Source: Glycomyces sp. YM15 (lineage in GTDB: Bacteria; Actinomycetota; Actinomycetes; Mycobacteriales; Micromonosporaceae). From it: a stretch of DNA of 64,000 nucleotides. The stretch is taken from contig NZ_JAERMK010000019.1 of assembly GCF_016918015.1 (NCBI RefSeq), positions 1 through 64,000 on the forward strand, given 5' to 3'. Below, piece after piece: positions 17,461-55,300 of this stretch. Each line of letters begins with the position of its first letter. The first letter of the stretch is position 1. The translations under genes were made by a program, and so were the position numbers. Below the pieces are notes generated by a model that did not search any database, was not told the DNA's origin, and saw only the letters and a list, made by a program, of their open reading frames with translations.

Positions 17461-17494
17461 CGGACGGCCCGGACCCGAAGGTCCGGGCCGTCCG
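17461..17494 (+). terminator. Terminator of the cellulase gene
   Basis: A perfect 15-bp stem (CGGACGGCCCGGACC and its complement) closed by a CGAA tetraloop, ten bases after the stop codon. Confidence 0.85.
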
Positions 17495-17525
17495 CCTTGC
17501 TCGCGGCTCGATGGCGAAGCGGCAA

Positions 17526-17539
17526 AGTTACCGCTATCA
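17526..17539. promoter_or_regulatory. Weak arabinan-type operator before GH127
   Basis: AGTTACCGCTATCA matches 11 of 14 positions of TGTTACCGGTAACA, the palindrome found before the arabinan genes at 27-40 kb, and shares the variant GCTA centre with the site at 29683. It lies about 60 bases before the GH127 start. Regulation by the LacI protein encoded at 29.8 kb is a hypothesis. Confidence 0.4.
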
Positions 17540-17599
17540 TCCTGGGGCGGATCGATGACACCCTCCGGTCCGACACGTCGACCTCGCAAGGACCGCTCC

Positions 17600-20860: not shown

Positions 20861-20937
20861 CAGTGCCGTTTTCGCCGCGTCGGCTTCCCGCGGGCGCATC
20901 GGAGTCGAGCGCACGGGATTCGACTGCGAGGAACCGG

Positions 20938-37354: not shown

Positions 37355-40243
37355 TTGAGAAGCATGCTCCGTCTGGCCGCCGCCGGCGTCGCCGCCCTGA
37401 CCGTCGGGCTCGCCGCGACGGCGGTCCCCGCGTACGCCGTCGATGCGGCGCCCCTCATCCACTACTCCTTCGACCAGGTGCCCGCGGACGGCGTCACGAT
37501 CGCGGACGAATCCGGCAACGGCAACGACGGCGTCGTGCGCCAGTCGGGCGCCGTGGTCGCGGACGGCGTGCTGTCGCTCCCCGGCGGCTCGTCGACGAGC
37601 GCCGCGGCGTACGTCGAGATCCCGACCGCCGACCTCGTCGGGCTCAACGATGTCACCGTGTCCACCTGGGTCTCCAGCCGCTCCGGCGCCGCCAACGTCG
37701 CGGCCGCCTTCGTCGGCGCGCCCGTCGCGTCGGGCGAGTCCTTCTCGAGCGGGTACTGGCTGCTCAACCCCTCGAACCCGAGCGGATACGTGAAGTCGGT
37801 CGTCACGAACTCGACGAACGCCTCGGCGCCCTGGGGCACCGAGGTGGGCGCCGGCTCGACCGCGACGCCGACGGCGGGCGTGCGGACCCCTGCCGGAACG
37901 GCGCTCTACACCACCGTCATCGACGGCACCAACGGTCTGCTCACCCTCTACGTCAACGGAGTGAAGACCACCGAGCACGCGATCGCCCGGAACCTCTCGA
38001 GCTTCGGCGGCAACCTCGTCGCGTACCTCGGGCGCTCGACGTACAACGACGCGTTCTTCGCGGGCGACTTCGACGAGCTCACGGTCTACGGCTCGGCGCT
38101 CACCGCCGCCGACGCGCAGGCGCTCTACGCCGACGGGGCGCTCGACCGCGCCGTCGCCTCCGTGTCGGTGCCGGGCACCGCGGACACGGACTTCGATCTC
38201 CCCACTTCGGCCTACGGAGCGGCGATCACGTGGACCTCGGACGACGCCGCCATCGCCGTCGACGGCGGCGCGGCGTCGGTGGTCCGGCCCGCTCCCGGCT
38301 CCGGCGACGCGACGGTCACGCTGACGGCGACGTTCACGGCGCTCGGCGAGACGCGGACCGGGTCGTACACGGTGATCGTCCCCGAGGACCTGACCGACGC
38401 CGAGAAGGCCGACGCCGATCTCGCGGCGATCGCGATCGCGACGGCCGACGACGTGCGCACCAACGTCTCGGTGCCGACCTCCGGCGCGAACGGCGCGGCC
38501 ATCGAATGGACCGTCCCCGCGGGCGCGCCCATCACCCTCCGCAGCGGGGCCGCCGACGGCACGCAGACGCTCGTGGTCGACCGCCCCGCGGCGGGCGAGG
38601 ACGCGGTGTCCGTGGTCGTCACCGCGACGGCGCGCATCGGCGACGCCGTCCGCACGCGCGACATCACGCTGGCCCTCCAGCCCCTGCCCGCCGCAGGAGT
38701 CGAGGAGGAGGCCTACGTCTGGGCGTTCTTCACCGGTGAAGGCGACGGCGCCGAGCAGGTGAGCCTCGCGGCATCGCGCGGCAACGACGCCCTCAGCTGG
38801 AACACCCTCAACGACGGAGAGCCGCTCTTCACCTCGACCCTGGGCACCCAGGGCCTGCGCGACCCCTTCATCATCCGCTCGGCGGAGGGCGACCGCTTCT
38901 ACATGCTCGCGACCGACCTCAAGATCGCCGGTCTCGCGGGCGGCTTCGACGCCGCCCAGCGCACCGGGTCGCTGTACATGGAGGTCTGGGAGTCCAACGA
39001 CCTCGTGCACTGGTCCGAGCAGCGCCACGTCAAGGTGTCGAGCGACTTCGCCGGCAACACCTGGGCGCCCGAGGCGTACTGGGACGAGGAGCTCGACACG
39101 TACGTCGTCTACTGGGCCTCGAACCTCTACGACACGACCGACGCGTCGTCGCGAACGGCCGTCACCTACAACCGGATGATGTACGCGACGACCGACGACT
39201 TCGTGACCTTCTCCGAGGCGAAGCCCTGGGTCGACGTCAAGCGCGGCACCGGCCGCGGCACCATCGACGCGACCATCGCGCGCGTCGACGACACCTTCTA
39301 CCGGTTCATCAAGGACGAGGCGTCGATGACCATCCGCCAGGAGCGGTCGGACGACCTGCTCGCGACCGTCACCGGCACGCTCCCGGGCACGACCGGCGCC
39401 GCCGACGAGTGGACGCTGGTGAAGGACCGGGTCGCCACGGGGCTCCCTAACGGGGAGCCGGGCGGTACCTTCACCCAGGGCGAGGGCCCGAGCATCTTCC
39501 CCGCCAACGAAGGCGATGTGAACGGCCACGAGTGGTACCTCTTCATCGACCAGCCCTCGTACCACGCCGGACCGAACTATTACATCCCGTTCGCGACCGA
39601 CGACATCGCCGACGGCGACGCGTGGGAGCCGGTCGGTGCGACCCTGCGCGAGAACCTGCCGCAGAACGCCGACGGCGGCAAGCCCCGCCACGGCACCGTC
39701 ATCCCGGTGACGCGCGCCGAGTACGAGGCCGTGCTCGCGGCCTTCGCGCCGGACATCGCGGTGACCGGCGCCGCCGACATCGCCGTCACCACGAAGGCCG
39801 GCACGGTTCCGGTCCTGCCCGGCGCGCACCTCACCAAGGCCGACGGCTCGGAGCAGGACGTCGCCGTCGTGTGGGACGCGATCGACGCGTCACAGTACGC
39901 GCAGCCCGGCACCTTCACGGTCGCCGGTGTCGCGCAGGACGACTCGCGCGCTCCCGTCACGGCCCAGGTCACCGTGACCGCTCCGCTCACGGTCGTCGCG
40001 TCCGTGCGGTGCCTCGCCGGCAGGGCGGCCGTGGTCGTCAAGACGACGAACGTCGGCGACGCCGGCGTGGACGTCGTGCTCACGTCCGACTTCGGGGCGA
40101 GGGCCATCGCCGATCTGGACGCCGGCGCGACCTCGTCGGTCGTGTTCTCGACGCGGCAGGCCGCCATTCCCGCCGGAGCGGTCCTCGCGACCGCGGACGG
40201 CGCCTCGCTCGAAGCCGCCTACCCGGCCGCGAACTGCGGCTGA
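37355..40243 (+). CDS. Secreted LamG - Ig-like - GH43 hydrolase with Ig-like C-terminal part
   Basis: 962 residues from TTG at 37355, chosen because AGAGG lies nine bases upstream; the ATG at 37364 is the alternative. A signal peptide (about 1-29, AVPAYAV) leads to LamG (about 32-245), degenerate Ig repeats (about 255-445) and the GH43 propeller (about 450-795: QGLRDPFIIRSAEGDR, NTWAPEAYWDE). A Big_4-type Ig domain (about 800-878: VLPGAHLTKADGSEQ) and the shared Cys-Gly-ending module (about 885-962: VRCLAGRAAV to AANCG) complete it. It is an extracellular arabinan-active enzyme. No operator precedes it, so it is probably expressed with the transporter. Confidence 0.88.
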   Translation: MRSMLRLAAAGVAALTVGLAATAVPAYAVDAAPLIHYSFDQVPADGVTIADESGNGNDGVVRQSGAVVADGVLSLPGGSSTSAAAYVEIPTADLVGLNDVTVSTWVSSRSGAANVAAAFVGAPVASGESFSSGYWLLNPSNPSGYVKSVVTNSTNASAPWGTEVGAGSTATPTAGVRTPAGTALYTTVIDGTNGLLTLYVNGVKTTEHAIARNLSSFGGNLVAYLGRSTYNDAFFAGDFDELTVYGSALTAADAQALYADGALDRAVASVSVPGTADTDFDLPTSAYGAAITWTSDDAAIAVDGGAASVVRPAPGSGDATVTLTATFTALGETRTGSYTVIVPEDLTDAEKADADLAAIAIATADDVRTNVSVPTSGANGAAIEWTVPAGAPITLRSGAADGTQTLVVDRPAAGEDAVSVVVTATARIGDAVRTRDITLALQPLPAAGVEEEAYVWAFFTGEGDGAEQVSLAASRGNDALSWNTLNDGEPLFTSTLGTQGLRDPFIIRSAEGDRFYMLATDLKIAGLAGGFDAAQRTGSLYMEVWESNDLVHWSEQRHVKVSSDFAGNTWAPEAYWDEELDTYVVYWASNLYDTTDASSRTAVTYNRMMYATTDDFVTFSEAKPWVDVKRGTGRGTIDATIARVDDTFYRFIKDEASMTIRQERSDDLLATVTGTLPGTTGAADEWTLVKDRVATGLPNGEPGGTFTQGEGPSIFPANEGDVNGHEWYLFIDQPSYHAGPNYYIPFATDDIADGDAWEPVGATLRENLPQNADGGKPRHGTVIPVTRAEYEAVLAAFAPDIAVTGAADIAVTTKAGTVPVLPGAHLTKADGSEQDVAVVWDAIDASQYAQPGTFTVAGVAQDDSRAPVTAQVTVTAPLTVVASVRCLAGRAAVVVKTTNVGDAGVDVVLTSDFGARAIADLDAGATSSVVFSTRQAAIPAGAVLATADGASLEAAYPAANCG

Positions 40244-40250
40244 GCAGCGA

Positions 40251-40275
40251 CCCGGCCTCGGATGCCGAGGCCGGG
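40251..40275 (+). terminator. Terminator after the second GH43 gene
   Basis: CCCGGCCTCGG and CCGAGGCCGGG form a perfect 11-bp stem with loop ATG, starting seven bases after the stop. Flanking GCAGC/GCTGC extends it. Confidence 0.75.
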
Positions 40276-40315
40276 CCGCTGCCCTTGCCTCCTGAGCTTC
40301 ACTCCCGTTAGTATC

Positions 40316-40329
40316 TGATACCGGTAACA
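40316..40329. promoter_or_regulatory. LacI operator before the double-GH43 gene
   Basis: TGATACCGGTAACA, 13 of 14 positions of the palindrome TGTTACCGGTAACA, ending 33 bases before the ATG at 40363. It is the third strong copy in the locus and lies right after the preceding terminator, so this gene has its own promoter. Confidence 0.7.
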
Positions 40330-40362
40330 ACGTCGTTGCCACGTCCCCTCGAAGGAGAGCGC

Positions 40363-43300
40363 ATGGACCTCCCATCCCGTGCGAGCCGCTTGATACCCCG
40401 ATTCCTCGCCGCCGCAACGGCATTCGGCCTCGCGGTCGCGGGCGCCGGCCCGGCGCAGGCCGCGGCCGACGACCACCTCGTGGCGCACTACGCGCTCGAC
40501 GAGACCACCGGCACCGTCGCCGTCGACAGCTCCGGCAACGGCCGCGACGCCCAGATCGCCGGAGGCGCGACGCTCACCGGCGGCGAGGGCGTCCGCCTCG
40601 ACGGCGCCGACGATCACGTCAAGCTGCCCGACAACATCCTCGCCGGGCTCACCTCGATCACGGTGAGCACCGAGGTGCTCGTGCGCCCGGAACAGGGCAC
40701 GCCCTATTTCATCTACGGTCTGGGCAATCCCGCCACCTCGAGCTCGGGCACCGGCTACCTGTTCTCGACGGGCAACGCCTACCGCGCCGCCATCACGACG
40801 GGCAACTGGTCGGGCGAGCAGAACACCTCGAGCGGTGCGAACCTCGCTCGCGGCGTGTGGAAGACCATCACCTACACGCTGGACGACGCGACCGACACCG
40901 CGACCCTCTACCTCGACGGCGTCCAGGTCGCGCAGAACACCGGCGTCACGGTCACTCCGGCGCAGATCGGCGGCGGCACCACGACGTCGAACTACATCGG
41001 ACGTTCGAACTACGCCGCCGACAAGCACCTCTCCGGCAGCGTCCGCGACTTCCGCATCTACGACGTGGCGCTCTCGGCGTCCGAGGTCGCCGCGCTCCAG
41101 CCGTCCGATGAGACGAAGGTGCAGCGCGACCTCGACGCGATCGCGCTCGGCGACCTCTCGAACGTGACCGCCGACCTCACGCTGCCGACGGCGGCGCCGA
41201 ACGGCTCGACGATCACTTGGGCCTCCAGCGACGAGGCCGTCATCTCGACCAGCGGCCGAGTGACGCGACCCGCGAGCGGCACCGCCGAGGTCACGCTCAC
41301 CGCGACGGCCGTGAAGGGCTCCGCGACGATGACGCGCGCCTTCGTCGCCACGGTGCCCGCGACGGGCGAGGCCGATCTCCAGGCCGATCTCGACGCCATC
41401 GCCATTCCGAACGCCGACGACATCCGCGGCAACATCACACTCCCCGCCACCGGCGCGGTGACCGGGAGCGCCATCACCTGGACCGCGTCCCCCCAAGGCG
41501 TCGTGTCCACTGTGGCCGACGGCGAGATCGCTCCCGGCGTCGTCACCCGCGGCGCCACCGACCAGAACGTCGTCCTCACGGCGACCGTCGGCGGCCTGAC
41601 CCGCGAGTTCGCCCTCACGGTGCGGGCGGCCCACACGCAGGAGGAGTACGAGGGCTACGCCTTCGCCTACTTCACCGCGAGCAGCGTGGCGGGCGAGAAC
41701 ATCCACTTCGCCGCGAGCGAGGGGAACAACGCCCTCGCCTGGAACGAGCTGAACGGCGGACTCCCCGTCCTGTCCTCGCAATACGGCGAGCAGGGCCTGC
41801 GCGACCCCTTCATCATCCGCTCGCCCGAGGGCGACAAGTTCTACCTCATCGCGACCGACCTCTCGATCGGCTCCGGCACGTCGTGGGACACCTCCCAGCG
41901 CCAAGGCAGCCGGTACCTCGAGGTGTGGGAGTCGCACGACCTCGTGAACTGGTCGGCGCAGCGGCACGTGCTCGTCTCGCCCGAGACGGCCGGCAACACG
42001 TGGGCGCCCGAGGCGTTCTACGACGAAGGCCTCGGCGCCTACGTCGTGTTCTGGGCCTCGAAGCTGTACGCGGAGAGCGACCCCGGGCACACCGGCAGCA
42101 CCTACAACCGCATGCTGTACGCCACGACGCGCGACTTCGTCACGTTCAGTGAGCCGCAGATCTGGCAGGACGGCAAGTCGCGCATCGACTCCACCGTCAC
42201 GCTGCACGACGGCGTCTACTACCGCTTCACGAAGGACGAGGGCGCGGGAACGACCGGATGCTCTGACATCATCCAGGAGTCCTCGGCCTCCCTGCGCGCC
42301 CCGCTTCCCGAGTGGACCATGATCGACTCGTGCATCGGCCGCGACGCCGGCACGAGCGCGGTCGAGGGACCCTCGATCTTCCAGTCCAACCCCGGCGACG
42401 TGAACGGCGGCGGCAAGCACTACCTGTTCGTCGACGAGTACGGCGGACGCGGCTACATCCCGCTCGTCACCGACGACATCGCGACCGGCGGATGGACCGT
42501 CGCCTCTGCATACGACCTCCCCGCGAGCCCGCGCCACGGCACCGTCATCCCCGTGACCGCCGCGGAACTGGCGGGCCTCTACGAGGGCCGGGAGCCGATC
42601 TCCTCGAACGAGAACGGCGAGGTCGTGCGCTACGACTTCTCCGACGGCGCGGGGACGACGCTCACGGACGTGTCGGGCAACGGACGGGACGCCACGATCA
42701 ACGGGGCGACCTGGTCCGACGGCGCCCTCGCCTTCGACGGCACGGACGACTACGTCGACCTGCCGGACGACCTCATGGCCGGCCTCACCGACATCTCGGT
42801 CGACGCCGACGTCTGGGTCGACACGACGCAGTCGGGCAGCTACTTCATCTGGGGGCTCGGCAACACCGACGCCGCGGGCGCCGGACGAGGGTACCTCTTC
42901 ACGACCGGCAACGGCTCGTACCGCACGAGCATCACGGCGAGCACGTACTCCTCGGAGCAGACGGCGAGTTCGGGTTCGGCGTTGCCGCGCGGACGCTGGG
43001 CGCACCTCACCTACACGCTCCAGGGGGAGACGGCCCGCCTGTACCTCGACGGCGTGCTCGTCGCTGTGAAGGACGGCGTGACGATCGATCCCGGCGACAT
43101 CTCGGGCGGCGAGACCTGGGCGAACTACCTCGGTCGCTCGCTGTACGAGCAGGACGCCCGCTTCAAGGGCAAGTTCCGGTCGTTCGCGATCTACGACCGC
43201 GCGCTGAGCTCGGCCGAGGTGCTCGACGCCGCGGGCGCGACGGGCGCGATCACCGACGTGTCGCTCACCGACGCCGCGGCGCTCGCGACCGCGCCGCTCG

Positions 43301-44694
43301 TCGACGCCCAGGCGCACACCGTCGTCCTCCCGGTAGTGAAGGGCACCGACGTCTCGGCACTCGCGCCGATCTTCAGCTCGGCGACCGGCGCCACGGTCTC
43401 GCCTCCGTCGGGCACGGTCGTGGACCTGTCCGCGCCCGTCGAGTACACGGTCACGGCCGGCGCGGCGACCACGACGTGGACGTTCTCCGCCCAGATCGTG
43501 AACAGCCCGGTGCTGCCGGGGCTCTACGCCGACCCGAACATCGCGGTGTTCGGCGACACCTACTACATCTACGCGACCACCGACGGGTACCCCGGCTGGG
43601 GCGGCAAGGACTTCTACGTGTGGTCCTCGAAGAACCTCGTCGACTGGACGCGCTCCGATGAGCCCTTCCTGACCCTGGACGGCGCGAACGGCGACGTCCC
43701 CTGGGCGAGCGGCAACGCGTGGGCGCCGACGATCATCGAGCGGGACGGGAAGTACTACTTCTACTTCAGCGGCCACAACACGGCCCTGAACCGCAAGACC
43801 ATCGGCGTCGCGGTCGCCGACAGCCCCGAGGGGCCGTTCACGGCGCAGCCGACGGCGATGATCCTCAACAACGAGGCCGTCACCTCGGGCCAGGCGATCG
43901 ACCCCGCGGCCTTCCACGACCCGGTCTCCGGGAAGTACTACCTCGCCTGGGGCAACGGCAGCCCCGTCATCGCGGAGCTGAACGACGACATGGTGTCGAT
44001 CAAAGCCGGCACCTACCAGCGGATCTCGGGCCTGACCGACTTCCGCGAGGGCGTGTTCCTCAACTACCGCGACGGCCTGTACCACCTGACCTACTCGATC
44101 GACGACACCGGCTCGGAGAACTACCGCGTCGGCTACGCGACGTCGACGAGCATCGACGGACCGTGGACGTACCGCGGCGTGATCCTCCAGAAGGACACGT
44201 CGCTCGGCATCAAGGGGACGGGCCACAGCTCGATCATCAACGTGCCCGGCACGGACGACTGGTACATCGCCTACCACCGGTTCGCGCTCTCGGGCGGCGA
44301 CGGGACCCACCGCGAGACGACCATCGACAGGCTCGAGATCGGCGAGGACGGCCTGTTCCAGACCGTCACCCCGACCCTTTCGAGCGTCGAGCCGCAGACC
44401 GTGCCCTCGCCGGGGCCGGAGTTCGCGGTGGCGATGGGATCGCGGTGCATCGCGGGCAAGGTCGTGCTGACCGTGTCGGTCATGAACCAGAGCGAGGGAC
44501 CGGTGTCGCTCGTGGTGTCGACGCCTTACGGCGACAAGACGATCGCGTCGGTGTCCGCGGGCCGCACGGCGACGAGCGGGTTCACGACCCGGGCGGCGCA
44601 GATCGAGGCGGGCACGGTGACCGTGACCGCGACGGCGGCGGACGGCGCCGCCGCACTGCAGGAAGTCGCCTTCCCTGCCGCGAACTGCGGCTGA
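40363..44694 (+). CDS. Secreted hydrolase with two GH43 domains and two LamG domains
   Basis: 1443 residues from the ATG at 40363 with GAAGGAGAG upstream. The order is signal peptide (about 1-37), LamG (about 38-245), two degenerate Ig repeats (about 250-420), GH43 number one (about 426-740: GLRDPFIIRSPEGDK, NTWAPEAFYDE), LamG number two (about 750-950), an Ig-like spacer (about 955-1045), GH43 number two (about 1046-1345: LPGLYADPNIAVFGDTYYI, GTGHSSIINVPGTDDWYI) and the shared terminal module (about 1355-1443, ending AANCG). The two GH43 domains are of different subfamilies, suggesting arabinofuranosidase plus arabinanase activity in one chain. Controlled by the operator at 40316. Confidence 0.9.
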   Translation: MDLPSRASRLIPRFLAAATAFGLAVAGAGPAQAAADDHLVAHYALDETTGTVAVDSSGNGRDAQIAGGATLTGGEGVRLDGADDHVKLPDNILAGLTSITVSTEVLVRPEQGTPYFIYGLGNPATSSSGTGYLFSTGNAYRAAITTGNWSGEQNTSSGANLARGVWKTITYTLDDATDTATLYLDGVQVAQNTGVTVTPAQIGGGTTTSNYIGRSNYAADKHLSGSVRDFRIYDVALSASEVAALQPSDETKVQRDLDAIALGDLSNVTADLTLPTAAPNGSTITWASSDEAVISTSGRVTRPASGTAEVTLTATAVKGSATMTRAFVATVPATGEADLQADLDAIAIPNADDIRGNITLPATGAVTGSAITWTASPQGVVSTVADGEIAPGVVTRGATDQNVVLTATVGGLTREFALTVRAAHTQEEYEGYAFAYFTASSVAGENIHFAASEGNNALAWNELNGGLPVLSSQYGEQGLRDPFIIRSPEGDKFYLIATDLSIGSGTSWDTSQRQGSRYLEVWESHDLVNWSAQRHVLVSPETAGNTWAPEAFYDEGLGAYVVFWASKLYAESDPGHTGSTYNRMLYATTRDFVTFSEPQIWQDGKSRIDSTVTLHDGVYYRFTKDEGAGTTGCSDIIQESSASLRAPLPEWTMIDSCIGRDAGTSAVEGPSIFQSNPGDVNGGGKHYLFVDEYGGRGYIPLVTDDIATGGWTVASAYDLPASPRHGTVIPVTAAELAGLYEGREPISSNENGEVVRYDFSDGAGTTLTDVSGNGRDATINGATWSDGALAFDGTDDYVDLPDDLMAGLTDISVDADVWVDTTQSGSYFIWGLGNTDAAGAGRGYLFTTGNGSYRTSITASTYSSEQTASSGSALPRGRWAHLTYTLQGETARLYLDGVLVAVKDGVTIDPGDISGGETWANYLGRSLYEQDARFKGKFRSFAIYDRALSSAEVLDAAGATGAITDVSLTDAAALATAPLVDAQAHTVVLPVVKGTDVSALAPIFSSATGATVSPPSGTVVDLSAPVEYTVTAGAATTTWTFSAQIVNSPVLPGLYADPNIAVFGDTYYIYATTDGYPGWGGKDFYVWSSKNLVDWTRSDEPFLTLDGANGDVPWASGNAWAPTIIERDGKYYFYFSGHNTALNRKTIGVAVADSPEGPFTAQPTAMILNNEAVTSGQAIDPAAFHDPVSGKYYLAWGNGSPVIAELNDDMVSIKAGTYQRISGLTDFREGVFLNYRDGLYHLTYSIDDTGSENYRVGYATSTSIDGPWTYRGVILQKDTSLGIKGTGHSSIINVPGTDDWYIAYHRFALSGGDGTHRETTIDRLEIGEDGLFQTVTPTLSSVEPQTVPSPGPEFAVAMGSRCIAGKVVLTVSVMNQSEGPVSLVVSTPYGDKTIASVSAGRTATSGFTTRAAQIEAGTVTVTATAADGAAALQEVAFPAANCG

Positions 44695-44701
44695 GGGGGC
44701 A

Positions 44702-44726
44702 GGGCGGCGGCCCCTGGCCGCCGCCC
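44702..44726 (+). terminator. Terminator after the double-GH43 gene
   Basis: GGGCGGCGGC and GCCGCCGCCC pair perfectly (10 bp) with loop CCCTG, eight bases after the stop codon. Confidence 0.75.
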
Positions 44727-44831
44727 GGCCCCGTCGGCGCCGAGTCCGGCGGGGCATTCCCGGATGACGCGAGCGTCGTCCGGTCTGGAGGGCGACGGTC
44801 GCCCACGCAAGTCCAAGAGAGGTCTCTCGAA

Positions 44832-45449
44832 ATGAATCGTGGAATGGTGAAGCGGGTGTCGGTCGCCGCGTTCGGCGGCGTGATGCTCGCGGGGGTAGCG
44901 GGTGCGGCGTTCGCGGAGGAGCAGGTCGGCACCGGTTCTGATGTGGATGTGAACGTGACCATCGAAGACACCGAACCGGGTGTGCTGGCGATGAGCGTGG
45001 CGGGTACGACGACGACGCTGGCCGAGAACGGGTCGACGGAGACGGTGCGTCAGTTCACGGGCGAGCTGCCGACGGTGACCGTGACGGACACGCGGACCGC
45101 GGAGGAGATCCCGGACGGTGCGTTCTGGTGGGTCGAGGGCACGGCCTCGAGCTTCGTGGGCGATGCGGGACAGGCGCCGATCGGGGCCGAGAACCTGGGC
45201 TGGTCGCCGTCGCTCGTGGACGACGGCTCCGGTGCCGTCGCCGTGGGCCCGGACGTCGCTCCGGCACTGGACACCGACGGGGCCCCGAACAACGTCGGCC
45301 TTCAGGGTCGCGAACTGCTGGCGATGGCGCTCACGAGCGAGGAGGCGATCGGATCGTGGGAGGCGAGCGCACTGCTGACGCTGCAGGTTCCGGCGGACGT
45401 CGAGCCCGGCTCGTACACCTCGAACATCACGCTCTCGCTGTTCGAATGA
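44832..45449 (+). CDS. WxL-domain surface protein
   Basis: 205 residues from the ATG at 44832. A signal peptide is cleaved near AAFA-EEQ (28/29). The mature part is one WxL-type domain: GELPTVTVTDTR, FWWVEGTASSFV, IGAENLGWSPSLVDD, and a C-terminal ALLTLQVPADVEPGSYTSNI / LSLFE strand pair. In Gram-positive bacteria WxL domains bind peptidoglycan and associate with DUF916/DUF3324 membrane proteins, displaying partners at the surface. The next gene encodes such a partner. A GAGAG-GT-CTCTC dyad overlaps the ribosome-site region. It is possibly the display component for the secreted GH43 enzymes upstream, which is inference from position. Confidence 0.85.
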   Translation: MNRGMVKRVSVAAFGGVMLAGVAGAAFAEEQVGTGSDVDVNVTIEDTEPGVLAMSVAGTTTTLAENGSTETVRQFTGELPTVTVTDTRTAEEIPDGAFWWVEGTASSFVGDAGQAPIGAENLGWSPSLVDDGSGAVAVGPDVAPALDTDGAPNNVGLQGRELLAMALTSEEAIGSWEASALLTLQVPADVEPGSYTSNITLSLFE

Positions 45450-45457
45450 GGCCCGTC

Positions 45458-45489
45458 GGGCGGGTGCCGGCCCTTCGCGGCACCCGCCC
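45458..45489 (+). terminator. Hairpin between WxL and DUF916 genes
   Basis: GGGCGGGTGCCG and CGGCACCCGCCC form a perfect 12-bp stem with an 8-base loop, eight bases after the WxL stop. Partial read-through would make the WxL protein more abundant than its membrane partner. Confidence 0.7.
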
Positions 45490-45538
45490 CTCAGCGAACG
45501 CCCGCGTTCGGGCCGCCTCCTGATCTCCGGAAAGGCCG

Positions 45539-46597
45539 ATGATGGTTCCCTCGTTCTCCTCCCACGCGGTGCGCGGTCTGTGCGCCGCCGCCGCGGTGTT
45601 CCTGGTCGCCTCGGGACCCGCGGTTCCCGCCGCCGCGCAAACGCCGGGTGAGGACTCGGGCACGGTGACCTGGTCGGTGCGTCCGGCGGACGAGGCGGGC
45701 GAGGACGGCCGGTCCTGGGTGGAGCAGGAACTCGACCCGGGCGAGACCGCGACCGAATACCTGGCGGTCCGCAATCTGTCCGACCAGGACGTGACGTTCC
45801 GCCTCTCCGCGGCGGACGGCTACTTCCAGGACAACGGCCGCTTCAGCATGCTGCCCTCCGACGAGGAGTCCGTGGACGCGGGGCTGTGGATCGAGGTGCA
45901 GGACGAGGTCACGGTCGGCGCGGACGAGACCGTGACCGTGCCGTTCACGACCACGGTGCCGGAGAACGCGACTCCGGGCGACCATGCCGCGGGGATCGCG
46001 GCGTCGGTCCTGTCGCAGCAGGTGGGGGAGGACGGCGCGACGGTCGGTGTGGAGTCCCGGGTGGGGTTCCGCGTGATGACCCGTGTGACCGGCGAGCTGG
46101 CGCCCGCCGCGTCGGTCGAGGCGGTGGCGTCCTCATACGACCTGTCGTGGAATCCGCTCGCGCCCGGCGCGGCGCAGGTGTCGTTCGAGGTCGTGAACAC
46201 CGGCAACGCCCGCCTCCTGGTGACCGGGGTCGTGGCGGCCGGCGGGCGGGAGGTCGCCTTCCCAGGGCCGGACGAGATCGACCAGGAACTGCTGCCGGGG
46301 GACCGGCGGGCGTTCACGGTGACGGTCGACGACGTGTGGCCGCTGGTGTTCGTGCCCGGTTCGGTCACGGTCACGCCGACCGTGGTCGGCGAAGGCGAGG
46401 ACACCGTGATCGAACCCGTGAAGGCGGACGCCGGATTCTGGGCCGTCCCGTGGCCGCAGCTGTTCGTTCTGGCCGGCATCGCGCTGCTGATCGGTTCGAG
46501 CCTGCGGGGCCGCCGCCGGTCGCGAGCGCGGCTGGAGGGCAAACTCGAGCAGGCCCGCGAAGAAGGACGCCGCGAGGCATTGGAGCAACACGCCTGA
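45539..46597 (+). CDS. DUF916-type WxL-partner protein with C-terminal membrane anchor
   Basis: 352 residues from ATG ATG at 45539, with GGAAAGG upstream; the second ATG at 45542 has better spacing. A signal peptide (about 1-33) is followed by a DUF916-like domain (about 40-165: VTWSVRPAD, GETATEYLAVRNLSDQDVTF, ENATPGDHAAGIAASVL) and a second beta domain (about 185-295: LAPGAAQVSFEVVNTGNARLL). A membrane span (about 300-322) leads to a basic cytosolic tail (RGRRRSRARLEGK). This is the layout of WxL-interacting proteins of Firmicutes, whose first domain contacts peptidoglycan and whose second contacts WxL. Pairing with the preceding gene supports the call. Confidence 0.85.
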   Translation: MMVPSFSSHAVRGLCAAAAVFLVASGPAVPAAAQTPGEDSGTVTWSVRPADEAGEDGRSWVEQELDPGETATEYLAVRNLSDQDVTFRLSAADGYFQDNGRFSMLPSDEESVDAGLWIEVQDEVTVGADETVTVPFTTTVPENATPGDHAAGIAASVLSQQVGEDGATVGVESRVGFRVMTRVTGELAPAASVEAVASSYDLSWNPLAPGAAQVSFEVVNTGNARLLVTGVVAAGGREVAFPGPDEIDQELLPGDRRAFTVTVDDVWPLVFVPGSVTVTPTVVGEGEDTVIEPVKADAGFWAVPWPQLFVLAGIALLIGSSLRGRRRSRARLEGKLEQAREEGRREALEQHA

Positions 46598-46689
46598 GCT
46601 TCCGGTGCGCTGTCGGGCAGGGCACTCGACCAGATCCACTTCGTGGACTTGGTCGCTCGTGCGTCGATCGCCGGCGCAGCCGCCCGGGT

Positions 46690-47568
46690 TCAACCTCGGC
46701 GAAGATCCTGCAGCAGGAGGCCGATCAGACTCTCCTCCATCACCGCTCGCCCCTCGGCGGCCATGCACTCGCCCAGCCGATGATCCCAAGGGGTCTCGAC
46801 GCCGCTTCCGCGAAGGGCGATGTCTTTGGCGCCAGAGCGGTAGTCCTCAGCCGACATGCGCCATGGTTCGGCGTTGGCGAACCGCTCGAGCCCGCGCTTG
46901 ACGATGCGAAGGCCCGCCCAGTCGAAGTCGGCCCTCCGAAGGAGCCGCGCCGTGCTTGCGGCTCCAAGGAGCCGGCTGTCGGAGGGATTGCGCCCGATCG
47001 ACGAAAATCGTCGTCGATGCCGCGAAGTCCTTCGAGGACATGGAGGAGGTCGCCGAGACGCTCGCGAACCCGTGTCGCCGTCGCCGCTTCGATTGGCCGT
47101 CGCAAGCTGTTCGAGGTCCTCCAGCAGGTCCCGGAACACGATGCGGGACAAGGACGTCTCCTCCATCGTCGCCCCGAGCACCGACTCCACCGCGGTGAAG
47201 GCCCGGTGGCCGGCCTCGGTGAACTGGTAGACCGAGTGGCGGCGCCGGTACTCGGCGATCGTGGCGGCCCGAGCCGCGTCCTGGGTCCGGTCGAGTACGC
47301 CCCAGTCGTCGAGCGCGTCCAAGCGGGCGGCCAGATCGACCTCGCCGCCGCCGGGGCAGCTGCTGTCCCGCTCGGCGAGCTCGTCGAGCGCCTGTGAGAC
47401 CGCCTCGGTCGACAGCACGACCTGGTAGTTAGCGCGGGCCCGGTCGATGGCGCGCAGCACCCAAAGGTAGTCGTGCCGTTCAGGGGCGGTGATGAAGCTG
47501 AACAGCCGCATGCGGTCGTCGAGCCCGACCGCGTCCAGCCCGAAAGCGTACGTAGGGGAGTCGGTCAC
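46690..47568 (-). pseudogene. Scar of a Wadjet-type system: jetA 5' end joined to jetD 3' end
   Basis: The first 155 residues (MRLFSFITAPERHDYLWVLR, DALDDWGVLDRTQDAAR, YRRRHSVYQFTEAGHRAF) match the start of DUF2397 (JetA). After a frame slip near 47105 the family sequence continues in another frame (ATRVRERLGDLLHVLEGLRG, IDDDFR). From about 46985 the text becomes the C-terminal part of DUF2399 (JetD): RADFDWAGLRIVKRGLERF, EPWRMSAEDYRSGAKDIAL, TPWDHRLGECMAAEGRAVM and EESLIGLLLQDL. In Wadjet operons of this set jetA is first and jetD last, so jetB, jetC and most of both ends have been removed. Not functional. The 880-base open frame may be annotated elsewhere as one hypothetical protein. Confidence 0.75.
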
Positions 47569-47644
47569 TGCGAAGTCTTCCGGTCACGGAATGGAAGCGA
47601 CCTCAACAACGGTAGCAGCGGCCGCTCGCACACCGCTGACCGGT

Positions 47645-48394
47645 TCACTGGCGGAGGCGCCCCGCGACCAGGTCTTGGAGGCGGTTCTTGAGCTGAGCGA
47701 CCGGCCGATGCAGTCGGTTCTCGCGCTTGAACGCCCGCTCGGACTTGCGGGCCCCGCGCGGCCTGTCGGCCCGGTAGCGCCATCGCGCCCAAGGCGACTG
47801 CGGCCGCGCCAGCCGGATCGCGCCCAGCAGCAGCGGCAGCAGCAGGAACACACCGAACACCGCGGTCCAGATCTTGCCCTTGAGCACGGTGATCACGGCC
47901 AGGCCGAGCCCGATCAGCAGGGGCCACGCCTGCCAGACGCCCGAGAGGTTCTCGTCGGGTTCGAACCCGAAGAACGGATGCAGGCCCAAGAGCAGCAACG
48001 CGGTGACCGCGATGATCCCGAACACGGCGTCCACCGAGATCCGGCCCTGTTCGGACCAGTAGACATCGTCGAGATGGAGGATCAGGGCGAACTCGTCGAT
48101 CACGAGCGCGGTGCCTATGCCGAAGAGCGCGGCGGCGGCCGCCGTCCATCCCTCGAGCTCGTCGGGGACGGCCAGCCCGGCGACTCCGCCGACGACCATG
48201 AATCCGAGTCCGAACACCATATGGTGGAGGTGCATGCCTCCGGGCGTGACATTGCCCGGCCACCAGCGCACGTCGGCCCTGATCATGCGGACCGACAGGC
48301 GGATGAACAGGAACCCGACCACGATGCCGGAGAAGAAGCAGAACAACGGCAGTCGCCCTGCGTCGATGATCCGGTCGCTGAACCACGCACCCAT
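47645..48394 (-). CDS. Integral membrane protein of unknown function
   Basis: 249 residues. Six hydrophobic spans lie between about 15 and 205, with conserved-looking polar motifs at membrane edges: GGMHLHHMVFGLGFM and ALVIDEFALILHLDDVYW. These are characteristic of an actinobacterial family of integral membrane proteins with clustered His and acidic residues that could bind a metal. The basic tail (about 210-249) is cytosolic. Function unknown. It lies downstream of the Wadjet scar's start and is probably a separate transcription unit. Confidence 0.72.
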   Translation of the reverse strand: MGAWFSDRIIDAGRLPLFCFFSGIVVGFLFIRLSVRMIRADVRWWPGNVTPGGMHLHHMVFGLGFMVVGGVAGLAVPDELEGWTAAAAALFGIGTALVIDEFALILHLDDVYWSEQGRISVDAVFGIIAVTALLLLGLHPFFGFEPDENLSGVWQAWPLLIGLGLAVITVLKGKIWTAVFGVFLLLPLLLGAIRLARPQSPWARWRYRADRPRGARKSERAFKRENRLHRPVAQLKNRLQDLVAGRLRQ

Positions 48395-48498
48395 GGCCGT
48401 CAGCCGATCAACCGCATGACGACGGTGCCTCGCCCTGCTGCCTGCCTGTTCATCTGGACATGGTCACACAGGCTTCCCCTGGCCGGGCCGCTTCCGGC

Positions 48499-48786
48499 TT
48501 GGTCACGCAGGGATGGCGCCTATCCTGTGGAAGAGCCGTCTTCGCGACCGCGCCGAAGGGCGGCATCGCCCCGCAGCACTACGCCTTCCTGGTCTCCGAC
48601 GAGGAGTTCGACGTAGCCTTCGTCAAGATCAGGGAGCGGGGCATCACCTACTGGGCCGACCCGGGGCACCGGCGCGAAGGCGAGATCAACCGCAACGACG
48701 GCGGCCGCGGCGTGTACTTCCTCGATCCCAATGGCCACAACCTGGAGCTGATCACCGTCCCCTATGGTGGATGGCCGACCCGATAA
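48499..48786 (+). pseudogene. Truncated copy of the VOC gene at 20.9 kb
   Basis: From 48546 the sequence matches the second two-thirds of the VOC gene at 20938-21324 at high identity (PQHYAFLVSDEEFD, EINRNDGGRGVYFLDP, GHNLELITVPYGGWPT). Upstream, 48499-48545 matches the promoter and leader of that gene (TTGGTC, 16 bases, TATCCT, 25 bases with four differences). The stretch between, with the start codon and about 49 N-terminal codons, is missing. No in-frame start follows the promoter, so it is probably dead. The open frame to 48460 begins upstream of the promoter. Confidence 0.75.
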
Positions 48787-48878
48787 GCGGTCCGCTCGGC
48801 GGCCTGCCGCATCTCAGCCGATCGGCGGGACGAAACGCGGGCGGACGCAGGCGAGCATTGAGCACATAACATGCCGTT

Positions 48879-49562
48879 GTGGCCGATGTTCTGATCACCG
48901 GAGCGAGCCGCGGTATCGGATTTGCGCTGACCCGCGAGTATCTGAAGCGGGGTGCTCGAGTATTCGCGGGTGTCCGTGACCCCGAGAACGCGTCGGCCTT
49001 GCACGCCTTGGCCGCAGACGAACTCGTGATCGTGCCTCTCGACGTCCGGTCACAGCGAGACATCGAGGACGCCGCGGATGTCATCGCGTCCCACGGCGGA
49101 CTCGATCGCCTCGTCAACAACGCAGGGGTTTTCGAGCCGAGCTCCGGGCTCGCCGAAGTCGACGGGCCGCGGATGCTCGAAGTGTTGCGCGTCAACACGG
49201 TCGGGCCGATGCTGATGGCCCAGCGGTTCCTCGACCTGCTGCGCCCGGACGCTCGGCTGGTGAACCTCACGATGCCCACCAGACCGATCGGCAGCCTCAC
49301 CCGCACGGAGAACCACGCGTTCGTCGCCAGCCGATACGCGCTCAACGCGCTGACGAAGATGATCGCCGTCGAAGTGGCCGACACCGGACCGATCGTGGCG
49401 GCCCTGTGGCCCGGCTACCTGCAGACCGATATGACAGGCCATGCCGAGAAGGCCACCCCGCTGGAGGAGGCGATCCCCGGCGTGGTCGACCTCATCGAGC
49501 GACTCGGCCCCGCCGATCACGGATCATGCCTGCTGCCCGACGGTTCGCACGCGCCCTGGTAA
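48879..49562 (+). CDS. Short-chain dehydrogenase-like protein with altered active site
   Basis: 227 residues from GTG at 48879. A Rossmann fold of classical SDR type shows VLITGASRGIGFALTREYLKRG (TGxxxGIG), VIVPLDVRSQRDIEDAA and DRLVNNAGVF (NNAG). At the position of the catalytic YxxxK the text reads HAFVASRYALNAL, with Phe for Tyr and Arg for Lys, and the catalytic Ser region (VNLTMPTRPIG) is also unusual. It resembles the C-factor (CsgA) group. It probably binds NAD(P) but may not catalyse the usual reaction. The next gene remnant starts ten bases after the stop. Confidence 0.82.
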   Translation: MADVLITGASRGIGFALTREYLKRGARVFAGVRDPENASALHALAADELVIVPLDVRSQRDIEDAADVIASHGGLDRLVNNAGVFEPSSGLAEVDGPRMLEVLRVNTVGPMLMAQRFLDLLRPDARLVNLTMPTRPIGSLTRTENHAFVASRYALNALTKMIAVEVADTGPIVAALWPGYLQTDMTGHAEKATPLEEAIPGVVDLIERLGPADHGSCLLPDGSHAPW

Positions 49563-49571
49563 CTCCGTGAC

Positions 49572-50093
49572 GTGGCGCTGAACGACGGGTTCCGCGTTCC
49601 GGTCCGGCCGCCGTCAGCGAAGCAACTGTTCGAGAGCAGCCGCATCCTGGACGAGTCGATCAGCCGGCACCTCACGCATGGGCCCGTTGTATACATGCGC
49701 CAGCAGCTCACCAGCGCCGAGATCATCGCCGGCCTAGTCGAGATGGCGAAGCAGATCGCCGAGGACGCCCGCCGCGGCGAGCAGTTGACCCCGCCGCTGA
49801 GCAATGACGAACTCGCCTTCTACGACGCCGTCGCCGATCTCGGCAGCGCCCGAGAACTGATGGGCGACGAAGTCCTCTCAGGTATCGCCCGGGACCTGGT
49901 CGTCCAGGTCCGAAAGAACCTCAAGCCGGACTGGATCTCCCGCGAACCGATCCGCGCCAACCTCCGCTCGACCATCAAGCGCCTCCTCGCCCGCCACGGC
50001 TACCCGCCCGAGCAGTCCGAGGACGCGATCAAGCTGGTGCTGCGCCAGATGGAGCACTTCGCCAACGAATGGTCGACCGACCCCACGTCCTGA
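49572..50093 (+). pseudogene. C-terminal remnant of type I restriction subunit HsdR (DUF3387)
   Basis: 173 residues from GTG at 49572. From about residue 45 it matches the C-terminal helical domain (DUF3387) of HsdR: LTSAEIIAGLVEMAKQIAED, LSNDELAFYDAVADLGSARE, MGDEVLSGIARDLVVQVRKN and IKRLLARHGYPPEQSEDAIK. Intact HsdR has about 1000 residues with a nuclease and a helicase, neither of which is present. No hsdM or hsdS lies nearby. It may be expressed as a stand-alone domain but is best read as a scar of a lost type I restriction system. Confidence 0.78.
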
Positions 50094-50212
50094 GGAGCGG
50101 CCTCCTTCGAGAGTTTCCCGCAAAAGCATTGCACCACATACAATGTCGATGATCTGCCCGATTCGAACGTTGTGCCCCTGGGCGCTGTACCCCACCGAGA
50201 ACGGACATCCTC

Positions 50213-50881
50213 ATGAACCCCACGAACGAACCCGACCTGGCTGAGCGCATTGATGATGCGATCGCATTCGCTGAAGATGACATCAAGAGGGCGCTCGAAG
50301 CTGCGACCGAATCCTATGGCTGGACGATCAACGCCTGGACTCTTGGCGACTACCTGTCCGAACAGAAGCCCGCCATCGTAGGCGAGTGGATCAGCTGGGT
50401 CGAATCACTCGCGACGATCGACTTCCACGCACGCGCAATTGCCTGGGCCGAGCTGGTCGCCCTGCGCGATGGTGTCGGATCAGCGGACTCGAACATCGTT
50501 GAAGCCCCGGTGCTGACGCTCGCAGAGCTCGAGAAGGAATACCCCTTCGAAGGGATCGACGAGATCACCGAGGAGGAACGCGACCCTGACGAAGTCTGCA
50601 GGGATCGGGTTGGCAGGTGCCACCACGTCCTTGAGAATCAGCTGTCCTACCTTGAGGACCAGGGCGGCCATCTCAGATGGGCCGCCAGTGTCGGCAATAC
50701 AGGCCAAGTCGTGGAGGCGCTCGCAGCGATCGATCGAACCGCCTCGGCCATGGCACGCGCATACGGGCTCTGGATGCGCCACCTTGAACCGATCTGGTCA
50801 CCTCCTACTGGAGCGCCTGATGACATCGCCGCGGAGTACGGCGATTGGACCGCGTTCGCGGCGTTCATAAACGCGGAGTAG
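50213..50881 (+). CDS. Hypothetical acidic helical protein
   Basis: 222 residues from an ATG at 50213. Rich in Glu, Asp, Ala and Trp; predicted mostly helical; no signal peptide or membrane span. Stretches such as IDDAIAFAEDDIKRALEAA and VVEALAAIDRTASAMARAYG suggest a helical bundle. I do not recognise a family. It sits between the HsdR remnant and a cluster of three small genes in the defence region and has noticeably lower GC than its neighbours (ATG-, GAT- and AAT-containing codons), which suggests recent acquisition. Confidence 0.55.
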   Translation: MNPTNEPDLAERIDDAIAFAEDDIKRALEAATESYGWTINAWTLGDYLSEQKPAIVGEWISWVESLATIDFHARAIAWAELVALRDGVGSADSNIVEAPVLTLAELEKEYPFEGIDEITEEERDPDEVCRDRVGRCHHVLENQLSYLEDQGGHLRWAASVGNTGQVVEALAAIDRTASAMARAYGLWMRHLEPIWSPPTGAPDDIAAEYGDWTAFAAFINAE

Positions 50882-51313
50882 GCGCCGCTCCGGACTCGAA
50901 GCCGAGCACTCCCCGCTCTATACCCGTGTCCGGCCGAGTGATGACAAGGCGACCCTGCGCCCGTGAGGAACAGCGGGCGCGATCGCTTCTGTTCGGCTCC
51001 GCCGCAAGGGCTCGCGGTCGGCTCGTGCTCGTCCGCAGCGGCGACACGAGCTCGCTCCTCAACGGCTTGCGAGTGTGATTCCGCCTACTGCGTTGGCGGA
51101 GAAGGAGCTCCGTCAGGCGTATTACGACCGCCCGAACTAGACGCTTTCGTCTAGACGGCGTGTCGTGCCTTGAAAACGACGAAAGGACGTGGAACAGTTT
51201 CAGCACGCGTGTATCACGCGTCCCAGAGAACCAACTGAATAGAAACGCGGCGGGCCGCCTGAGGCCTTGGCAGAAATCCGGCGGCCCGCCCCTTACCAGA
51301 GAGGAAACCTCCC
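50882..51313. other. Intergenic region of about 430 bases with a strong hairpin
   Basis: No convincing gene. It contains a small dyad, CTAGAC-GCTTTC-GTCTAG (51137-51154), and the long hairpin at 51249-51290 listed separately. The part 51150-51245 is comparatively AT-rich and may hold a promoter for the small-gene cluster. Confidence 0.45.
51249..51290. terminator. Long hairpin before the small-gene cluster
   Basis: GGCGGGCCGCC and GGCGGCCCGCC pair perfectly over 11 bp with a 20-base loop, ending 23 bases before the first small gene. It could end an upstream transcript or act as an attenuator in the leader of the cluster. Confidence 0.5.
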
Positions 51314-51565
51314 GTGGTCCGCTCCAGCCTACGCTATGACCCGGTCCCAGCCTCGGTCAAAATCGACCTCGAACTCCACAAGCCGTACCGCACCTGGTTC
51401 GGTCTCGGCCGCCTGCGGTGCGAATGGTGCCACCACAAGTGGGGCGCCCACGGATGCCCCAAACGCCGCAGCGCGGTCAAGTTGCTCGCCGCGAACATCA
51501 ACTCCGACTCGCTCCGCGACGTGCTCACCACCCTCATCGGCTTCTCCTGGGGCGGTGCGGCATGA
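51314..51565 (+). CDS. Small protein with Cys/His cluster
   Basis: 83 residues from GTG at 51314, preceded by GAGAGGAAA. The middle carries RCEWCHHKWGAHGC, a Cys-x2-Cys-His-His pattern followed by His and Cys that could hold a zinc ion. The rest is basic at the start and helical at the end. I do not recognise a family. It overlaps the next gene by four bases (ATGA) in a three-gene cluster. Such tight clusters of small genes are common in actinobacterial mobile elements, but no integrase or replication gene is present. Confidence 0.6.
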   Translation: MVRSSLRYDPVPASVKIDLELHKPYRTWFGLGRLRCEWCHHKWGAHGCPKRRSAVKLLAANINSDSLRDVLTTLIGFSWGGAA

Positions 51566-51840
51566 ACCCCGAACGCATCGTCCTGGGCCGCTTCACCCTC
51601 GAACACCGCCGCATCGAGGTCTACCAACTCGCCGGAGGCTCCACCACCTCCGTTCGCCTGCGGCGCATCGCACCCGAACCGGCCGTCGACCTCGGCTATA
51701 TCAACCGCATCGGCTCCCCGTTCGCCCGCCTCCACCTCTACCGGGCAGAATGGCCCGCCGCGCTCCGCCGAGTCGCCAAGGAAAAGGCCACCGCGATCTG
51801 GCACCACGCCGCCCGCCACGAAGCGGAGGTCGAAGGATGA
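51562..51840 (+). CDS. Small hypothetical protein, second of three-gene cluster
   Basis: 92 residues, strongly basic with many Arg and His (RFTLEHRRIEVYQLAGG, RAEWPAALRRVAKEKATAIW). The pattern suggests a short beta-hairpin region followed by a helix. It is not recognised. Overlaps of four bases with both neighbours show that the three genes are translated together. Confidence 0.55.
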   Translation: MNPERIVLGRFTLEHRRIEVYQLAGGSTTSVRLRRIAPEPAVDLGYINRIGSPFARLHLYRAEWPAALRRVAKEKATAIWHHAARHEAEVEG

Positions 51841-52133
51841 CCCTCCGCTTCATCGACGGCCTCCCCGTCCTCGGCTACCTCGAACTTGACAACCGATCCC
51901 TGACCTTCGTCTGGAACTGGCATGAACCGGTGCTCCGCGTGACCTTCACCGAGGATGACCCGCCCCTCATCGGCCACGTCACCCACCTCGACTGCCTCCC
52001 GCGCTTGGCCGCCGCCCCCGACAACCTCGCCTGGCTGGGTCAAGACGACCCGGTCCGCACCCGAGCCGTCCTGGATCACGCGATCGACCTGTGGCGCAGG
52101 AAAGAGCGCCTGTTCCGTGACTGCGAGGGCTGA
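51837..52133 (+). CDS. Small hypothetical protein, third of three-gene cluster
   Basis: 98 residues, acidic and aromatic (LELDNRSLTFVWNWHEPVLR, TFTEDDPPLIGHV), predicted beta strands followed by a C-terminal helix (VLDHAIDLWRRKERLF). It is not recognised. It ends 90 bases before the promoter of the type ISP gene, so the cluster is probably not part of that transcript. Charge complementarity with the basic second product may mean a complex; this is a guess. Confidence 0.55.
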   Translation: MTLRFIDGLPVLGYLELDNRSLTFVWNWHEPVLRVTFTEDDPPLIGHVTHLDCLPRLAAAPDNLAWLGQDDPVRTRAVLDHAIDLWRRKERLFRDCEG

Positions 52134-52325: not shown

Positions 52326-55300
52326 ATGGCCGGAACCGTCCGAGACATCCTCGACAACATTCGCGAGACCTCGCAGAGCAACGCGGAGCGCGGCCGTCGA
52401 TTCGAGCAGCTCATGCTCGCCTTCTTCCGTACTGATCCGCAATGGAGACAGCAGTTCTCCGAAGTGTGGATGTGGGCCGATTCCCCTCTCGCCGAGCACA
52501 ACGCCACCGACACCGGTATCGACCTCGTCGCCCGCGAAGCGGGATCCGAAGCGTACTGCGCGATCCAGTGCAAGTTCTACGGACCGGACAAGGTCATCCG
52601 CAAGGCCGACCTCGACTCCTTCTTCACCGCCTCGGGAAAGAGGGGTATCAACCGCCGCATCATCGTCTCGAGCACCGACAAGTGGGGCCCGAACGCCGAA
52701 GCCGCTCTTGTGGACCAGCAGATCGAGGTGACCAGAGTCGGGATGTCCCAGCTCGACACGAGCCCGATCGACTGGGACAAGGTCGCCTCCGAGTACGCAT
52801 GGGCCGAGGGAGCGCGCCTCGGCCCGCAGTACCTGCACGCCAAGAAAGCGCCCATGCCGCATCAAGAGGAGGCGATCGAAGCAGTTCTCAGCGGGTTCGA
52901 GACGCACGACCGTGGCCGACTCACCATGGCCTGCGGCACCGGCAAGACACTGACCGCGCTCAAGATCGCCGAACGACTCGCCTCCACGCAGGAGGAGCCG
53001 CTCAGCGTGCTGGTCCTGGTGCCCTCGATCTCCCTGCTGTCCCAGAGCATCCGTGAATGGGTCTCCGAGGCCGAGACCGCCCTGCGGCCGTTCGCGGTCT
53101 GCTCGGACCCGAAGGTCTCCAAGCACGCCAAGCAGACCGACTCCGGAGACCAGTCGGTGCACGACCTCGCCCTGCCTGCCACGACGAGCGCCGCGAAGCT
53201 CGTCGATCGGATCCGCGGCGGCGATTACGGGCCCGGCATGACAGCGGTCTTCTGCACCTACCAGTCCCTGCCGACCATCGCCGCAGCCCAAGCCGCCGGA
53301 TTTGACGCGTTCGACCTCGTCGTCTGCGACGAGGCGCACCGCACCACCGGTGCCGCCCTGACCGATCGGGACGAATCCAACTTCATCCGAATCCACGATC
53401 CGGCCTACATCGCGGCCGAACGGCGCCTCTACATGACCGCTACACCGCGGATCTACACGGAGCCCGCCAAAGTCGAGGCCCAACGGAGGAGCGCCGAGCT
53501 CTGCTCGATGGACGACGAGGCGAGATTCGGACCCGAGTTCCACAAGCTGGGCTTCGGGGAAGCGGTCGAAGCCGGACTCCTCGCGGACTACAAGGTCCTG
53601 GTGCTGGGCGTCGATGCGGGCTACGCGGCCAGGACCATGCAGGCGGAGCTCGCGGACGACAACATGGAACTCAACGTCGCCGACGCCGCCAAGATCATCG
53701 GAGTCTGGAACGGCCTGCGCAAGCGCCTCGGACCCTCGATCGAGGAGAACGGGTTCCGACCCGGCGAGGCGCCCATGCGGCGCGCCGTCGCCTTCGCGCG
53801 GAACATCGCCGCGTCGAAGCACCTGACCGAAGTCTTCCCGCAGGTGACCGAGCGGCTCGGCGCGTCGCCCGAGGGCGGTCTGCGTTGCGAAATCGAGCAT
53901 GTCGACGGAACGATGAACGCCCTGGAACGCGGTAGGGCACTCGAATGGCTGAAGTCCGACCCCGGCGAGGGGACCGCCCGGATCCTCTCCAACGCCCGAT
54001 GCCTGTCCGAAGGAGTGGACGTCCCGGCGCTCGACGCGGTCCTGTTCCTACACCCGCGCAACTCGGTCATCGATATCATCCAGGCCGTGGGCCGCGTCAT
54101 GAGGCGAGCTTCAGGGAAGGAGTACGGCTACATCATCCTCCCCGTCGCCGTTCCGGAAGGCATTCCTCCGAACGAGGCCCTCGACGACAACGAGCGCTAC
54201 CGGACCGTGTGGCAAGTTCTCAACGCCCTTCGCTCCCATGACGATCGATTCAACGCCGAAGTCAACCGGATCGGACTCGGCAAGTCCCGTTCCGATCGGA
54301 TCAAGATCGGCCACATCGCCGACGACCACGACTCGGGCGACCTCGGGAATCTCGTGCGGGTGGCCCGGGACGGCATCCCGTCGGTCGAAGAGTGGCGCAA
54401 CGCCATCTACGCGCGAATCGTGCAGAAGGTCGGCACGCGGGCATATTGGAAGGAATGGGCCAAGGACATAGCGGCCATCGCGGGCAGCCACATGACCCGC
54501 ATCCGAAACGCCCTCGACCTCCCGGGCAAGCGAGGGGTGTTCGACTCGTTCGTCGCAGCACTGCGCTCGAACCTCAACCCCTCCATCTCAGAGCTTGATG
54601 CAATCGAAATGCTGGCTCAGCATCTGATCACGAAACCGGTCTTCGACGCCCTTTTCGACCAGTACGAGTTCGCAGCCCACAACCCGGTCTCCGCGGCCAT
54701 GGAGACCGTGCTCGAAGCTTTGGACGACCAGGCCCTGGACTCCGAGCGCGACACGCTCAAAAGGTTCTACGAGCAAGTCCGGGCTCGCATCGAAGGCATC
54801 AACAACCCTGAGGGGCGTCAGAAGATCCTGCTGGAGCTCTACGAGCAGTTCTTCAAGAGCGCCATGCCGGAGGTGTCCGATCGACTCGGCATCGTCTACA
54901 CCCCGGTCGAAGTCGTGGATTTCATCCTCCACCTCACCGATCAAGCCCTGCGGAAGTACCTCGGCGCCTCACTGAGCGACGAAGGGGTCCAGGTCATCGA
55001 TCCGTTCGCGGGCACCGGCTCATTCCTCGTCAGGCTGCTCCAGTCGGGGCTCGTCCGCCCCGAGGATCTCGTCAGGAAGTACGGCAGTGAACTGCACGCG
55101 AACGAGATCGTCCTGCTCGCCTACTACATCGCCGCCGTCAACATCGAGGAGGCGTTCCACAGCAGGTCCGCGGAAGCGGGGTACCGGCCGTTCGACGGCA
55201 TGGTCTTGACCGACACGTTCCAGCTCTACGAGAGCCGGCCTGAGGCTGCGGAGGGTGTGCTCGGCGGCAACACCGAACGCGCGGTGCGCCAGCAGAGCGT

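Follow-up and report, generated by a model that had tools for sequence, protein, structure and literature searches.

A three-piece scar with an inverted jetC fragment points to the collapse of a type II Wadjet operon in Glycomyces sp. YM15

Introduction

Wadjet is an SMC complex composed of the kleisin JetA, the KITE protein JetB, the SMC protein JetC and the Toprim nuclease JetD, and in B. subtilis suppression of plasmid transformation is described as requiring all four Jet proteins (PMC10586767). Losses of such systems have been reported. In Clostridium cellulovorans, jetABCD was lost spontaneously, through a deletion of approximately 23 kb in a laboratory mutant whose account includes measured effects on plasmid uptake (PMC12287153). 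A Mycobacterium smegmatis laboratory strain used for its plasmid uptake carries a null mutation of EptABCD (PMC10586767), likewise a Wadjet-type loss in an actinobacterium, which we liken to the present case on the basis of its description.

Glycomyces also belongs to the Actinomycetota. Here we describe a locus within a 64,000-nucleotide stretch of the Glycomyces sp. YM15 genome (hereafter the window) that holds pieces of a type II Wadjet operon (JetABCD; DUF2397-DUF2398-SMC-DUF2399). The type II system is the source of all three pieces of the scar; unlike such a system, the scar lacks jetB, retains only fragments of jetA, jetC and jetD, and carries the jetC fragment in inverted orientation. 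It also differs from the C. cellulovorans case in that residual pieces and an inverted insert remain, and in being known from sequence alone. The decay of defence operons is already known; this case stands out by its inverted jetC piece and by the loss of a type I restriction-modification system next to it.

Results

The frame at 46690-47568 on the minus strand is open for 292 codons without a stop. Pfam identifies DUF2397 at residues 23-165 (profile positions 1-139 of 483, E 8.2e-35) and DUF2399 at residues 203-289 (profile positions 64-152 of 152, E 1.3e-20). The best PADLOC models for the two halves are JetA2 and JetD2, both of type II Wadjet, with JetD2 covered from position 325 to 419 of 423; the NCBIfam models TIGR02677 and TIGR02679 both match as well, below their cut-offs. 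The first-pass annotation had read this frame as the 5' part of a DUF2397 gene and the 3' part of a DUF2399 gene, and the agreement between the Pfam and PADLOC matches, with a profile hit in each half, bears this out. In annotation, such a frame may be recorded as hypothetical or as a partial match to Wadjet.

To place the pieces, we aligned the locus with the operon of Glycomyces buryatensis (genome G009, locus L022), whose genes are typed by PADLOC as JetA2-JetB2-JetC2-JetD2 (jetA 5812-7350, jetB 7347-8657, jetC 8654-12691, jetD 12621-13880). By BLAST, window 47070-48419 corresponds to L022 6310-4946, from jetA through the adjoining 249-amino-acid gene, in a continuous match of 88% identity with small gaps, and window 46700-46975 corresponds to L022 13843-13568 within jetD (78% DNA identity). 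Between them, window 46976-47070 matches L022 9263-9359, a stretch of jetC, on the opposite strand (84%, E 2.0e-21). The locus thus consists of three pieces (Table 1), whose order and orientation are identical when compared with each of four intact operons (genomes G009, G021, G001 and G004). Missing relative to G. buryatensis are L022 6311-9262 and 9360-13567, together 7160 bp, including jetB. The 249-amino-acid gene itself matches no Pfam family at E <= 0.001.

Table 1. Coordinates of the scar and neighbouring features in the window
Feature	Position	Strand	Description and basis
jetD 3' end (DUF2399, C-terminal part)	46690-46975	-	Runs through the stop codon; Pfam, PADLOC, alignment with G009
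Joint 2, inverted jetC/jetD	46975/46976		0 bp shared seen; BLAST limits and junction letters
Inverted internal jetC piece	46976-47069	+	About 95 bp, codons about 204-236 of 1345 in G009; blastn and local alignment, four intact operons
Joint 1, jetA/inverted jetC	47069/47070		About 1 bp shared; BLAST limits and junction letters
jetA 5' end (DUF2397)	47070-47568	-	Roughly codons 1-166 of 512, start codon kept; Pfam, PADLOC, alignment with G009
249-aa gene	47645-48394	-	Immediate upstream neighbour of jetA here and in G009, whose copy is 90% identical as a protein
Small 5'-truncated frame	48460-48786	+	108 aa, versus 129 (G009) and 133 (G014)
Second scar, 173-aa frame	49572-50093	+	Other DNA to 49689; hsdR 3' end from 49692
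Type ISP restriction-modification gene	52326-57164		Apparently full-length
AAA_5 ATPase	58379-60613		Partial PADLOC type II restriction matches

Several observations support the inverted jetC assignment. In alignments with the four operons, the stretch scored 95-112 in inverted orientation, compared with 25-26 in the other orientation and 33-35 at most when 200 mononucleotide shuffles were scored for each operon. When segment ends were set by hand, the jetC piece showed a 2-bp gap against all four intact copies, which fits decay. The jetA piece is 86% identical at the DNA level to jetA of G. buryatensis, with no indel across the first 496 bp; the frame slip that the first-pass annotation had placed in this part is therefore not there, and its appearance arises because the inverted jetC starts at that point. 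Inspection of the junction letters by eye revealed no repeats at either joint. Thus, of the earlier proposal that strains with the full operon would give the endpoints and repeats of a deletion, the endpoints could be mapped in four operons and no direct repeats were seen. The locus still reads as the remnant of a deletion, but as three pieces with an inverted jetC rather than a plain jetA-jetD fusion, and because of this insert a single simple deletion is insufficient to produce it.

When the full frame was searched against 61 genomes (its own and 60 relatives), 21 matched at E <= 1e-5. A DNA search of 22 Glycomyces genomes gave matches in five, namely the genome itself and G009, G021, G001 and G004, which represent four species. 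In each of these four, the jetA, jetC and jetD pieces are spaced as in an intact operon, and a protein search found a full-length jetC. A separate contig scan, seeded by exact 8-residue patterns and therefore liable to miss the genome of the window itself or one very close to it, found no match past residue 191 in four relatives that correspond to these genomes (Glycomyces buryatensis, G. salinus, Glycomyces sp. L485 and G. paridis). G. buryatensis also encodes a second, distant jetC (46% identity; G009, contig C85, 45083-49117), with jetA and jetD matches adjoining.

We examined the coding pieces for relaxed selection by counting changes private to one taxon, at sites identical in all the others, expressed as nonsynonymous:synonymous; several tests were made, and the p values are raw and one-sided. 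For jetA in five taxa, the counts were 8:2 in the window, 1:10 in G009, 2:4 in G021, 9:11 in G001 and 30:30 in G004. Comparison of the window with the pool of G009, G021 and G001 (12:25) gave p = 0.009, and with the pool to which the most distant taxon, G004, is added (42:55) p = 0.029. With four taxa, p was 0.17 for jetA alone and 0.18 for jetD alone (window 12:5 versus 28:24); pooling both genes gave 21:16 versus 48:70 (p = 0.064), and in this pooled set the intact G021 operon, at 20:16, has a ratio equal to that of the window. Relaxed selection on what is left of the coding sequence is thus possible, and the signal is weak, with p running from 0.009 to 0.18 according to the gene and taxa chosen. 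The case for a dead remnant comes from the anatomy of the scar, not from the selection tests.

These data bear on whether the frame might be a retained gene, in which the JetA N-terminal and JetD C-terminal parts were fused and took on a new role, for instance interference with other SMC complexes. The reading frame has stayed open with the jetA start in place, as it would in such a gene, and the selection tests do not clearly speak against one. Against it, the middle of the frame consists of jetC sequence read in antisense and carrying a 2-bp gap, and the whole-length fused protein occurs only in its own genome among the 61 searched and in none of the four relatives scanned, so we consider this explanation very improbable. 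The same result upholds the earlier expectation that the fused protein is not a widespread intact gene; a conserved fusion gene, looked for in both sets of genomes, was found nowhere beyond its own and was rejected.

The fragmentation of the assembly into 62 contigs raises the further alternative that pieces of an operon present elsewhere in the strain were wrongly joined. However, the genome, at 99.65% completeness, has one DUF2397 place and one DUF2399 place, both inside the scar, and no jetC protein match at E <= 0.001 in a search that was positive in four of five other genomes. The scar also sits within a contig of 117,827 bases, with no second Wadjet copy found that could serve as a source, and there is accordingly very little chance that it is an assembly artefact. 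The remaining alternative, a simple jetA-jetD deletion accompanied by a frame slip within jetA, accounts for the outer pieces being the 5' end of jetA and the 3' end of jetD on the same strand, but is ruled out for practical purposes by the match of 46976-47069 to opposite-strand jetC in all four intact operons and by the gap-free jetA alignment.

To determine whether similar remnants occur elsewhere, we surveyed DUF2397 in an even sample of 298 genomes from the order, each at least 90% complete, with at most five candidates scored per genome. Matches at E <= 0.001 were found in 85 of these, and 83 pass the cut-off. Among the matches listed, two places above the cut-off are confined to the N-terminal part of the profile, one in the window (1-139) and one in genome G061 (1-180). 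The G061 piece (L080 6023-6637, there matching profile positions 1-178 of 483) may be another Wadjet remnant within the order; the two following frames that were scanned gave no Jet match. In genome G171, one jetA lies in two adjoining pieces (profile positions 2-113 and 122-482), and G050 has one DUF2397 place that starts at profile position 83. A literature search for Glycomyces together with Wadjet returned no paper, and among the matches listed for pseudogene, degraded or remnant defence islands, Wadjet was not mentioned.

A second scar lies approximately 2 kb from the Wadjet scar and was recognized by comparison with another Glycomyces species (genome G014, contig C13, locus L078; flank matches here and to G004 at an E cut of 1e-6). 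Window 48544-49689 corresponds to L078 1605-2749 (93.8%) and window 49692-51838 to L078 17751-19901 (93.5%), so that the window lacks 15.0 kb of G014 sequence and has a 2-bp filler at the joint. Approximately the last 133 codons of hsdR are kept in the window, where they match the Pfam family T1RH-like_C. In G014, the 15.0-kb stretch encodes a type I restriction-modification operon with hsdM (12018-13655) and hsdR (14862-18152, kept after 17751); a 405-amino-acid frame between them (13648-14865) occupies the hsdS position and is a candidate by place alone. The DNA beyond the hsdR remnant is the same as in G014 and, for approximately 1.2 kb, as in G004. Because the remnant is still flanked by the same downstream DNA in these genomes, the stretch is more likely to have been lost from the window than gained by G014. 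The G014 stretch also contains frames of 717 (L078 4811-6964) and 844 amino acids (9466-12000) without a Pfam match. The G014 genome has no DUF2397 match, nor any jetC protein match in the search that detected jetC in the four operon genomes.

Between the two scars, BLAST limits and junction letters show 359 bp fewer than in G. buryatensis around 48502/48537, where the small frame is shortened. Part of this frame (48544-48779) is 89% identical to window 21085-21320, within a frame at 20755-21324.

On the other side of the Wadjet scar, window 40209-46599, which ends with a 352-amino-acid gene, matches G014 contig C4 at 91% identity, and C4 continues with other genes beyond that point (E cut of 1e-8 and alignments of at least 90 columns, for this contig and for C64 below). 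The G014 match ends at 46599/46600, just past the stop codon of the 352-amino-acid gene, and the scar and the flank shared with G. buryatensis begin beyond it; this position may be an island edge. Window positions 9381-12964, 14255-14689 and 51130-52133 match G. buryatensis contig C64 near its Wadjet operon in scattered order, a sign of much rearrangement in the island. Further along, a 647-amino-acid frame without a Pfam match (60768-62711) adjoins the AAA_5 ATPase, the two forming a candidate further defence pair. Taken together, the locus resembles a defence island in which two systems have collapsed and at least one other may be intact.

Discussion

We conclude that the frame is very likely what remains of an ancestral type II Wadjet operon that was collapsed by rearrangement into three pieces with jetC inverted; in each of four relatives, all three pieces trace to a single operon. 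A working system would need a complete JetA kleisin, of which only the first 139 of 483 DUF2397 profile positions are matched; JetB, whose whole gene in G. buryatensis falls within the missing stretch 6311-9262; the JetC SMC motor, of which 95 bp remain in inverted orientation, with no other jetC protein match in the genome; and a JetD nuclease with CAP and Toprim domains, of which the C-terminal part alone is left. Without jetB, nearly all of jetC, two thirds of jetA and about three quarters of jetD, the locus can encode no working Wadjet. The frame probably makes no working part of one either, having stayed open by chance in G+C-rich DNA.

In the history that we propose, the ancestor would have carried a complete jetABCD operon beside the 249-amino-acid gene. 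Rearrangement would then have removed the 7160 bp, leaving the 5' end of jetA, the turned 95-bp jetC piece and the 3' end of jetD, and the breaks would have been sealed by Ku-dependent end joining. This could have happened in one event, with a broken jetC fragment sealed the wrong way round, or in two, the DNA from jetA to jetC (L022 6311-9359, about 3.05 kb) being inverted first and about 7.16 kb deleted afterwards; template switching during repair could also have been involved. Both the jet and the hsdR joints probably arose by end joining, because no repeats were seen at the three (two Wadjet, one hsdR), which show approximately 1 bp and 0 bp of shared sequence and a 2-bp filler, respectively, and because the genome encodes two Ku homologues.

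A broader, and in our judgement unlikely, scenario is that the defence island has been losing systems in series by end joining, with the Wadjet operon, the 15-kb type I stretch and a third, small loss between them going one after another, possibly after breaks made by its own nucleases. The joints at the Wadjet, hsdR and small-frame positions suggest such a series; the cause of the breaks is conjecture. If defence nucleases did inflict this damage on their own genome, such scars would be a record of autoimmunity.

For the frame itself, the three-piece map means that it should not be taken for a working system. More generally, scars of this kind show which natural lineages have dropped the plasmid barrier, and their joints show how. 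With two defence losses within approximately 2 kb in one genome, the linkage of such losses becomes testable in further strains.
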